Of a stretch of DNA of 22,745 nt, positions 15,354 through 17,884 are shown piece after piece. The number at the start of each line of letters is the position of its first letter. Within the stretch, counting starts at the first letter, position 1. The DNA is from a virus. Under the pieces are notes generated by a model. The model did no database searches and had not been told where the DNA came from. It saw only the letters and a program-made list of their open reading frames with translations. A program made the translations under genes and the position numbers. The stretch lies in the IMG/VR virus record IMGVR_UViG_3300037961_002050, positions 1-22,745 of that record. One strand, 5' to 3'.

Positions 15354-15532
15354 AGTACACAATCAACACAACCGTCCGCAACATTGCGGAGAACGGCACG
15401 GAACAGGAGCGCACCTTGTACCAAGTAATTGGCACAGACAGGGAAGGCAATGCTTCGATCGTGGGCAATTACGACACAGAGGAAGGAGCTCAAGAAGTCG
15501 TCAGAGAACTTGAGGCGCTCGACGAAGATTGA
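15350..15532 (+). CDS. Hypothetical protein, 60 residues
   Basis: ATG 15350 overlaps the terS stop by ATGA; an in-frame ATG at 15320 would overlap terS more deeply. The product (60 residues) looks like a small three-stranded beta plus helix fold (TLYQVIGTDREGNASIVGNY, EEGAQEVVRELEAL). It is acidic at the C-terminus. It lies between terminase genes and its stop overlaps the terL TTG. No function assigned. Confidence 0.55.
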   Translation: MKYTINTTVRNIAENGTEQERTLYQVIGTDREGNASIVGNYDTEEGAQEVVRELEALDED

Positions 15533-16686
15533 GACAGGCGGCGACATATTACCACGTCAAAGAGTCGCCAGCCAAAATACAAGTCCACCAAGGGGGCACG
15601 CGTAGCGGCAAGACGTTCTCAATCCTTACGGCGCTCATTGAGTTGTGCCACCACAACGAGAATGCGGGGGCCGTCATCACAATCGCGCGCAAAACTTTCC
15701 CGGCAATACGTGCGTCGGTCATGCGGGACTTCTTCACCATCCTTGAACGGGAAGGCATCTACAACGTCGCGAACCACAACAAAAGCGAGGCGACATACAT
15801 CCTGTTTGGCAACCTCGTCGAGTTCATTAGCATCGACCAGCCGCAAAAGGTGCGCGGGCGCAAGCGTGACATTCTATTTGTCAACGAGGCCAACGAGCTT
15901 AACCTTGAGGACTGGCGGCAACTCATCCTGCGGACAACGGGTCGCATCTTGATTGACTACAACCCTTCCGACGAGTTCCATTGGATTTACGACGAGGTGA
16001 TTCCGCGTGAGGACGCCGACTTCTACCAAACAACATACAAGGACAACCCGCATTTGCCGGAAGCGGTCGTTCAAGAGATTGAACGCCTACAAGAGGCCGA
16101 CCCGGACTACTGGAAAGTGTACGGCCTCGGTGAGCGTGGTGTTAGCCGCGCAACAATTCTTACCCATTGGAAGGAATTCGACCAGATCCCGCCGGAGTAC
16201 AAGTTGCTGAACATTGGCCTTGACTTCGGCTACACTAACGACCCTACGGCCATTGTCAAGGTCTACACCGACGGCCACGGCTTCATCTTGGACGAGGTGT
16301 GCTACGCCACCGGCCTGACCAATTCAGCCATCTCGCAAACCTTACGCGACGCCGAGGTGGGACGAGGCATGATGATTGTGGCTGACAGCGCCGAACCAAA
16401 AAGTATAGATGAGATTCACGGCCACGGGTTCAACGTCCACCCGGCAAGAAAGGGAAGGGACTCGGTGCGTGCCGGCTTGGACTTCCTACGCTCCCGACCA
16501 TTAGGTATCACGTCGCGTAGCGTAAACGGCATTAAGGAACTCCGCAACTATAAGTGGAAGGAAGACAAGAACGGGCGTCAACTCAACGAACCGGTCGACG
16601 CTTTCAACCACTTCATTGACGCGAGCCGGTATGCCATAACGCACACGCAGACCAACCCCAACTTCGGTAAGTACGCTCTCGGGTAA
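15529..16686 (+). CDS. terL: Terminase large subunit
   Basis: 385 residues from TTG 15529, which overlaps the previous TGA. Walker A is GGTRSGKT (22-29), the Walker B region is DILFVNEANEL (~114-124) and motif III/C follows (TTGRILIDYNP). The nuclease domain begins at LNIGLDFGYTNDPTA, with catalytic Asp in LDFG and a late acidic pair in DAFNHFIDASRYA. The ATPase pumps DNA into the capsid and the nuclease cuts concatemers. The length is typical for compact Bacteroidota phage TerL. It lies ~13 kb downstream of the portal rather than next to it. Confidence 0.9.
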   Translation: MRQAATYYHVKESPAKIQVHQGGTRSGKTFSILTALIELCHHNENAGAVITIARKTFPAIRASVMRDFFTILEREGIYNVANHNKSEATYILFGNLVEFISIDQPQKVRGRKRDILFVNEANELNLEDWRQLILRTTGRILIDYNPSDEFHWIYDEVIPREDADFYQTTYKDNPHLPEAVVQEIERLQEADPDYWKVYGLGERGVSRATILTHWKEFDQIPPEYKLLNIGLDFGYTNDPTAIVKVYTDGHGFILDEVCYATGLTNSAISQTLRDAEVGRGMMIVADSAEPKSIDEIHGHGFNVHPARKGRDSVRAGLDFLRSRPLGITSRSVNGIKELRNYKWKEDKNGRQLNEPVDAFNHFIDASRYAITHTQTNPNFGKYALG

Positions 16687-16731: not shown

Positions 16732-17394
16732 ATGAGTGTGAAGCTATCCCTCCCTGCTACTTTTGCTGACCTCACCTTGCGCCACCTTCAGGTGCTTGAG
16801 ACGTCCGACGACCCCATGACGTGCGTGGGCGCCGTGACGGGCACTGATTGGGAGGAGTTGAGGGAGATGCCACGGGCTTTGATTCAAGAGGCATACAACC
16901 ACCTCCAAACGCTTCGCAAAGCCGAGACACAACGCCACCTCGAAACGTTCGAGCTTAACGGCACCCGATACGGCTTCATCCCGAATTGGGATGAGTTCAC
17001 GGCGGGTGAGTGGATCGACGCCGAGCAACTTTGCGGGGACTTTTGGAAGAACGCACACAAGGTCATGGCACTGTTGTTTCGTCCTGTCAAAAGGGAGTTG
17101 GGCAAGCGCTACGAAATTGAGCCGTACACAGCTAAGGAAGACGCTGAGGCGTTCCTCGATATGCCGGCGGATCAAGTGGCTGGGGCGTTGCTTTTTTTTT
17201 CGACTACCAGAAACGCACTTCTCAGCACTTTGCAGTCCTCTTTGATTCAAGCGGCGACGAAGGTGGCGACGACTTCGGGGAGAAGTGGGGGTGGTACCCT
17301 GTCCTCCATTCTCTCGCGGGTGAGGACATTCTTCGCATCGAAGCCGTCACCAAACTCACCGTCGGTCATGTATTCACCCACCTCGCATTCTTGA
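16732..17394 (+). CDS. Tail assembly chaperone, zero-frame product (gpG-like)
   Basis: 220 residues in the zero frame from ATG 16732. The first ~156 residues contain GFIPNWDEFTAGEWIDAEQL and KVMALLFRPVKRE, then EIEPYTA and DMPADQVAGALLFF, a set I associate with gpG-like tail chaperones of Bacteroidota phages. At 17191-17200 the frame meets C followed by nine T. Beyond that the zero frame becomes Ser/Thr-rich without pattern, while the -1 frame shows a conserved domain. So the zero frame gives the short chaperone and a frameshift gives the fusion. These chaperones coat the tape measure during tail assembly. No Shine-Dalgarno is present. Confidence 0.75.
   Translation: MSVKLSLPATFADLTLRHLQVLETSDDPMTCVGAVTGTDWEELREMPRALIQEAYNHLQTLRKAETQRHLETFELNGTRYGFIPNWDEFTAGEWIDAEQLCGDFWKNAHKVMALLFRPVKRELGKRYEIEPYTAKEDAEAFLDMPADQVAGALLFFSTTRNALLSTLQSSLIQAATKVATTSGRSGGGTLSSILSRVRTFFASKPSPNSPSVMYSPTSHS
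17191..17200 (+). promoter_or_regulatory. -1 ribosomal slippery site
   Basis: C followed by T9. In the zero frame the codons are CTT TTT TTT TCG, so both P-site and A-site tRNA-Phe can re-pair after sliding back one base (T TTT TTT). The position, at the end of the gpG-like domain and before a gpT-like domain in the -1 frame, is where tail-chaperone frameshifts occur in other long-tailed phages. Confidence 0.75.
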
Positions 17395-17432
17395 AGGACT
17401 TGGAGTTCAAACGTAAGCAAGCCACCGCATGA
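17199..17432 (+). CDS. -1 frame extension of the tail chaperone (gpT-like part of the fusion)
   Basis: After slipping back at the T9 run, the ribosome reads FDYQKR..., then DDFGEKWGWYPVLHSLAGED and LTVGHVFTHLAFLKDLEFKR, to TGA 17430-17432. The KWGWYxxxxxLAxxD pattern followed by TxLAFxK is the conserved T-part of Bacteroidota phage chaperone fusions. The stop overlaps the next ATG (17429) by 4 bases, whereas the zero-frame stop at 17394 does not fit the junction pattern. The fusion from 16732 would be about 233 residues. It has no start of its own and depends on the frameshift. Confidence 0.75.
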   Translation, partial: FDYQKRTSQHFAVLFDSSGDEGGDDFGEKWGWYPVLHSLAGEDILRIEAVTKLTVGHVFTHLAFLKDLEFKRKQATA

Positions 17433-17884
17433 TAACCTACACCAACATCGTGAACCGTTTCGAGGCATTCGTCGCGGCCAACCCGTTTGTGCAGACGTTT
17501 AGCTTCGGCTCGCCCTCCGACGTCGACTTGGACAAGTTGGAGACGTACCCGATCCTTCACCTCGTGTACACGGGTGCCAGCTACGAAGGAAGCTCGAAGA
17601 CCTACTCGTTCGAGGTGTACATCTTGGACAACCCGCCCAACGACGAGTCCAAGGTGGACTTTCAAAAGGGCGCCATCACAAACGCCGAACAAATTGCCGA
17701 GGACATCTTGGCCGACATGGAGCGCGGTGGGGAGGTGTTCACCTTCGCCCATCGCTTTGATGTCGCCAGCGCCTCGACCGTCCCGCTTGAGGAGGAGGGA
17801 AGCAACGTGCTGTCCGGCGTCCTCTTGAACCTTTCCGTGACCGTTGGTTACGAACACGACTCTTGCAACTCACCACTCACATGA
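17429..17884 (+). CDS. Tail completion / minor tail protein
   Basis: 151 residues from ATG 17429, ATGA overlap on both sides. The start TYTNIVNRFEAFVAANPFVQ, then SDVDLDKLETYPILHLVYTG and FEVYILDNPPND, recalls small Bacteroidota phage proteins placed between tail chaperone and fibre genes. They look like tail-terminator or completion proteins: an alpha/beta fold with one long N-terminal helix. No membrane or catalytic features are present. Position between the chaperone and the fibre supports a tail role, but the exact joint it occupies is not known. Confidence 0.55.
   Translation: MITYTNIVNRFEAFVAANPFVQTFSFGSPSDVDLDKLETYPILHLVYTGASYEGSSKTYSFEVYILDNPPNDESKVDFQKGAITNAEQIAEDILADMERGGEVFTFAHRFDVASASTVPLEEEGSNVLSGVLLNLSVTVGYEHDSCNSPLT

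Follow-up and report, generated by a model that had tools for sequence, protein, structure and literature searches.

A gene in the tail module of a virus (IMG/VR virus record IMGVR_UViG_3300037961_002050) very probably gives rise to two proteins, through programmed slippage within a run of nine or more T residues. The gene lies in a stretch of 22,745 nucleotides, positions 1 to 22,745 of that record, which is referred to here as the window. If no slippage occurs, an N-terminal domain (the N-domain) would be followed by a 64-residue tail encoded in the zero frame, giving a protein of 220 amino acids. Slippage, in effect the gain of a single U by the mRNA or a -1 shift by the ribosome, would instead join the N-domain to a 77-residue domain with a KWGWY motif (the C-domain), giving a protein of 233 amino acids. 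The parts of the gene, referred to below as the T9 gene, and the genes that flank it are as follows.

15529 to 16686, + strand: terminase large subunit (terL), directly upstream (Pfam Terminase_3, 1.8e-22, and Terminase_3C, 1e-16; PHROG terminase large subunit, 1.1e-43)
16732 to 17199, + strand: shared N-domain, 156 codons in the zero frame, present in both products (AlphaFold pLDDT 92; matches phrog_32199, of unknown function)
17192 to 17200, + strand: T9 slip run, read in frame as CTT TTT TTT T, with the in-frame heptamer T TTT TTT; at least nine T residues in 226 of 226 distinct relatives
17200 to 17394, + strand: zero-frame C-terminal tail (C-terminus A), 64 codons plus stop, dual-coding with the -1 frame; marked by stop depletion and by its substitution pattern
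17199 to 17432, + strand: -1 frame C-domain (C-terminus B), 77 amino acids with the KWGWY motif, reached only by the slip; colinear with the C-terminus of single-ORF homologues in the Duneviridae
17429 to 17884, + strand: tail terminator protein (AlphaFold pLDDT 79; fold matches to the P74-26 neck, Z 12.6, T5 p142, Z 11.5, and lambda gpU, Z 11.2)

The zero frame runs from the ATG at position 16732 to a stop codon that ends at 17394, and thus continues past the slip, as the original prediction had it. The -1 frame, entered at 17199, is open for 77 codons up to a TGA at 17430-17432, and this stop codon does overlap the ATG of the next gene at 17429 (ATGA), again as predicted. The T9 run (C-T9-C, 17191-17201) is the only run of nine or more A or T residues in the whole window; under a first-order model approximately 0.16 T runs of that length would be expected.

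Conservation of the T run and of the -1 frame relation

The first 80 relatives identified in viral contigs (and confirmed by tblastn) all had exactly C-T9, in the same register and with the same frame break. Profile searches enlarged this set to 226 sequences that are distinct around the slip site, but which are not phylogenetically independent samples. In every one of them, down to approximately 28% identity, the run consisted of T9, T10 or T12 and was never shorter. The C-domain, which had been noticed as a conserved-looking domain in the window, was always in the -1 frame wherever that frame could be read. The codons flanking the run vary (CTT, GTT, ATT or TTT before it; TGG, TCG, TAC, TTC or CTG after it) while the run keeps at least nine T residues. 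That such a run is conserved in all of these relatives rules out a chance origin.

Relatives of the gene are also found in the cultured Nonlabens phages P12024S and P12024L, with 31% identity to the gene of the window. In P12024S, the same gene, with C-T9 in the same register and with the same -1 domain, is annotated as two hypothetical genes, gp38 and gp39 (phrog_32199 and phrog_38404), and differs from its counterpart in the window in that the zero-frame tail has only 25 codons. Existing annotation therefore misses the structure of the gene, which in P12024S is carried as two separate hypothetical proteins. (Note that gp38 and gp39, at L082:13001-13695, have the appearance of a single gene containing a programmed frameshift and could be annotated anew as such.) No prophage copies were found in a scan of genome contigs. 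Some members of the family have another T9 run, approximately 120 bases upstream of the start of the N-domain (L059:2882, L050:2882 and L053:2882, among others).

Judged from the sequences of the family, the frameshift at the T9 run is real and programmed. The original prediction of a -1 shift at this run that yields a fusion protein, encoded directly upstream of the tail terminator gene, is upheld by the conservation of the run and of the -1 relation and by the finding, described below, that the -1 domain has no start of its own.

Sequencing error, phase variation and the requirement for the slip

The original prediction allowed for a T lost from a true T10 run, in which case a sequencing or assembly error would have broken one continuous gene. 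Homopolymers are error-prone and the homologues in the Duneviridae are single ORFs, both of which would fit this explanation. However, runs of at least T9, accompanied by the same -1 relation, were present in 226 distinct sequences, in independent assemblies and in the cultured phage P12024S, and the zero-frame tail is under selection (see below). Moreover, in 2.9 million viral contigs the T9 form of the commonest site gave at least 120 matches and its in-frame T10 form gave none. We thus consider error refuted for the family, and the chance that it accounts for the T9 run to be negligible. Scarcely more probable is phase variation, in which replication slippage on the run would toggle the C-domain on and off. 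Poly-T runs are mutable, and loci that vary in phase through such runs exist (PMC3711429), but the N-domain and the C-domain share a frame in none of the relatives, no in-frame T10 form of the commonest site was encountered, and runs of T10 and T12 still keep the -1 relation. Both explanations were set aside because relatives retain the -1 relation with runs of T9 to T12 and because the in-frame T10 form is absent where the T9 form is abundant.

The -1 ORF of the window contains no ATG, GTG or TTG from the upstream stop codon to 20 codons past the slip, and in a set of 50 diverged representatives an ATG for this ORF was present in one and absent from 49. The -1 domain is thus dependent on the slip. 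Were the C-domain instead an independent gene, with a start codon of its own and translated by coupling, the annotation of P12024S gp39 as an ORF in its own right would be accounted for. We regard this as very improbable given the scarcity of start codons, and given that the conserved domain begins at the slip and that a profile alignment to the single-ORF homologues runs straight through the slip; independent initiation was ruled out by the start-codon scan of the window and of the 50 representatives.

Selection on the zero-frame tail

The sequence that follows the T run in the zero frame had initially been taken for noise. Stop codons were counted in the first 55 zero-frame codons of 50 diverged relatives and compared with a null in which the -1 protein was held fixed and synonymous codons were redrawn from the codon usage of each contig. 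Only 11 zero-frame stops were observed when 135.3±7.6 were expected, and the stretch was free of stops in 46 of the 50 relatives. By comparison, this stretch contained 249 stops in its +1 frame (256±12 expected), and the two alternative frames of the N-domain contained 224 and 266 stops (225 and 277 expected, respectively).

Substitution rates, taken from 79 disjoint pairs of relatives, are shifted as well. Third positions of the -1 frame, which are second positions of the zero frame, had 0.136 changes per site compared to 0.252 at third positions of the N-domain, so that the wobble rate in the -1 frame is about half that of the N-domain. First positions of the -1 frame, which are wobble positions of the zero frame, received 34% of changes, compared to 19% in the N-domain. 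The depletion of zero-frame stops together with the altered substitution pattern argues that both alternative C-termini are under selection across the family; the zero-frame tail is, by these measures, coding sequence rather than noise. Among phage frameshift genes, it is unusual for selection to act in two frames over so long a stretch.

Single-ORF relatives and the origin of the two products

A structural relative of the N-domain in Flavobacterium phage 6H led us to phages 2A, laban6-1, Ingeline and Leef and to a Microcystis phage. In these phages, distant flavophages (Duneviridae) among them, one continuous ORF of 259-301 amino acids covers both domains. These hypothetical proteins of the Duneviridae and Helgolandviridae (Ingeline1_5, laban61_gp017, phage 2A ANB40923 and Leef1_2; phrog_25418) have the two domains in the same order as the window but differ from its gene in being encoded with no frameshift and no T9 run. 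Profile comparison of the N-domain with the single-ORF homologues gave an E value of 2.7e-8 (probability 95), and comparison of the spliced form gave 3.8e-7 (probability 93), with the alignment passing straight through the slip. (Note that in phage 6H the protein AGN89393, at L382:9960-10940, is cut to 191 amino acids, and that a 2-nt length difference separates 6H from 2A and related records; phage 2A has one ORF of 293 amino acids at this position, and the sequence of 6H reflects either an error or a real break.)

Since distant Duneviridae encode the fused protein as one ORF, the frameshift product is the widespread form, and the zero-frame tail has probably been added more recently. Tentatively, and with rather less than even confidence, we propose a widespread, unannotated, marine flavophage-like family in which polymerase slippage on a run of at least nine T residues splits what was ancestrally a single tail-module protein; the slipped product would correspond to the full-length ancestral protein, and a new C-terminus in an overlapping frame would be carried by the unslipped product, with both frames selected over 55-65 codons. 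The family offers a natural comparison between the same protein with and without the frameshift, and this makes the need for two isoforms, and for their ratio, in tail assembly directly testable. We do not claim a gene order shared with the Duneviridae, because profile comparison revealed no relation between the tail terminator and the gene that follows the Duneviridae homologue.

Slippage by RNA polymerase or by the ribosome

Slippage by RNA polymerase seems slightly likelier than -1 frameshifting by the ribosome, because a minimum of nine T residues is kept across a change of register (TTT TTT TTT C or NTT TTT TTT T) and because consistent stimulators of ribosomal frameshifting were not found. 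Such stimulators (a downstream structure and an upstream SD-like motif) are usual, but not obligatory, at ribosomal -1 sites. Among 50 representatives there was no consistent RNA structure downstream of the slip (mean z of -0.40 for 60 nt and of -0.02 for 90 nt; z below -2 in six), and an SD-like motif was present upstream in three, compared to 22% of control stretches, and is thus depleted. In the window itself, the sequence downstream of the slip showed no RNA structure (z of -0.14), and an Rfam search of the window returned no match. As would be expected for transcriptional slippage, an A/T homopolymer of approximately nine or more (T9 to T12) is conserved at the frame junction in all 226 relatives. 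In many bacterial genomes, selection against A/T runs sets in at nine nucleotides (PMC1088944), and runs of more than eight T residues (Tn, n>8) are the published range for transcriptional realignment on T runs (PMC3711429).

A ribosomal -1 frameshift on T TTT TTT, the classic mechanism of lambda gpG/gpGT, has a probability that we place a little below even. An in-frame heptamer (within NTT TTT TTT or TTT TTT TTT) is present in 226 of 226 relatives, the two Phe codons would re-pair perfectly, hydrophobic residues at the codons concerned can partly explain the first and the ninth T, and there is precedent for ribosomal frameshifting in the tail genes of dsDNA phages (PMC5009743). However, the heptamer alone would permit runs of T7 or T8, neither of which was seen in the 226 relatives, and the lack of consistent stimulators also speaks against it. 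The slippage favored here, which is deduced from sequence, resembles transcriptional slippage in Thermus dnaX (A9) and Shigella mxiE, in that a coding A/T homopolymer of approximately nine gives rise to alternative C-termini and, as with mxiE, slippage leads to an extended product. It differs from both in that the T9 gene belongs to a phage structural module and in that the two C-termini are similar in length and both selected.

Tail assembly chaperone or neck protein

The original prediction likened the gene to the gpG/gpGT strategy of long-tailed phages. We consider it somewhat better than an even chance that the two products take part in building the tail as lambda gpG/gpGT do; a role as a tail assembly chaperone (TAC) is plausible from context and analogy. 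The T9 gene and lambda gpG/gpGT have in common a single gene in the tail module, a shared N-domain and, close to the end of the gene, an entry into the -1 frame that adds a domain. This two-product -1 strategy, which is the part of the likeness that holds up, is conserved among the relatives, and two-product slippage is a hallmark of TACs. In contrast to lambda, where a compact heptamer is used, the slip run of the T9 gene has nine or more T residues, its selected zero-frame tail gives a dual-coding overlap of 55-65 codons, its sequence matches no TAC family, and distant relatives encode the fused form as a single ORF. If true, a lambda-like strategy based on polymerase slippage would be new as far as the searchable literature shows.

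The location of the gene fits less well. The genes of gpG/gpGT lie directly before the tape measure gene, and TAC genes lie between those for the major tail protein and the tape measure, whereas the T9 gene adjoins terL and the tail terminator gene, in the order terL, T9 gene, terminator. In P12024S, it lies approximately 6.6 kb before the tape-measure-like gp49, and in Ingeline two genes separate the homologue from the tape measure gene. Because it does not occupy the classical place, we have not classified the T9 gene as a gpG/gpGT member. Searches of Pfam, PHROG and solved structures placed the T9 gene in no functional family; in particular, none of 25 family members matched a TAC in Pfam or PHROG, although TAC families are very divergent. 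A Foldseek search of the N-domain against the PDB returned nothing at E<=0.001. In a second look at solved structures, the HK97 TAC (2ob9) was the only chain with a Z of at least 2, and the match to the model of the N-domain was very weak (Z of 2.1, rmsd of 4.2 over 73 residues). In BFVD, the N-domain weakly matched an entry labelled as a TAC (E of 0.095), and its other relatives were uncharacterised phage proteins.

An alternative that we hold to be a serious one, if short of an even chance, is that the gene encodes a head-tail connector or another protein of the neck module, the two isoforms of which would serve neck assembly. The positions of the gene, beside terL and the terminator gene in the window and between adaptor and neck genes in Ingeline, agree with this alternative, as does the lack of a TAC match among profiles and solved structures. 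What weighs against it, apart from the two-product slippage itself, is that the one chain at or above a Z of 2 is that of a TAC and that in Ingeline no other candidate immediately precedes the tape measure gene. (Ingeline and Leef, both of which carry homologues, are siphophages; PMC8776804.)

One 40-kb contig (G001) that also has the T9 gene contains, at L275:7575-10523, a canonical major tail protein, a TAC candidate of 94 amino acids and a tape measure gene; the TAC candidate has an A8 run near its stop codon and a second ORF behind it. A TAC block of its own in this contig would make it less likely that the T9 gene acts as a TAC. However, neither this tail protein nor this tape measure family occurs in 11 other records, and the remaining related contigs that were examined reach at most approximately 30 kb (35.7 kb for P12024S). 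For these reasons, we take the contig for a chimera, and its extra 13 kb are likely, but not proven, to be chimeric.

The tail terminator of the window has a structural relative in gp41 of P12024S. In many relatives of the window, the terminator domain forms the N-terminal part of a much longer protein of 365-783 amino acids (L023:3695-4789, L101:3692-5965 and L242:3683-6031, among others), and its relatives in BFVD include long proteins labelled as lectin-like or as having collagen repeats. These long proteins may be fusions of a terminator with an adhesin, located at the neck.
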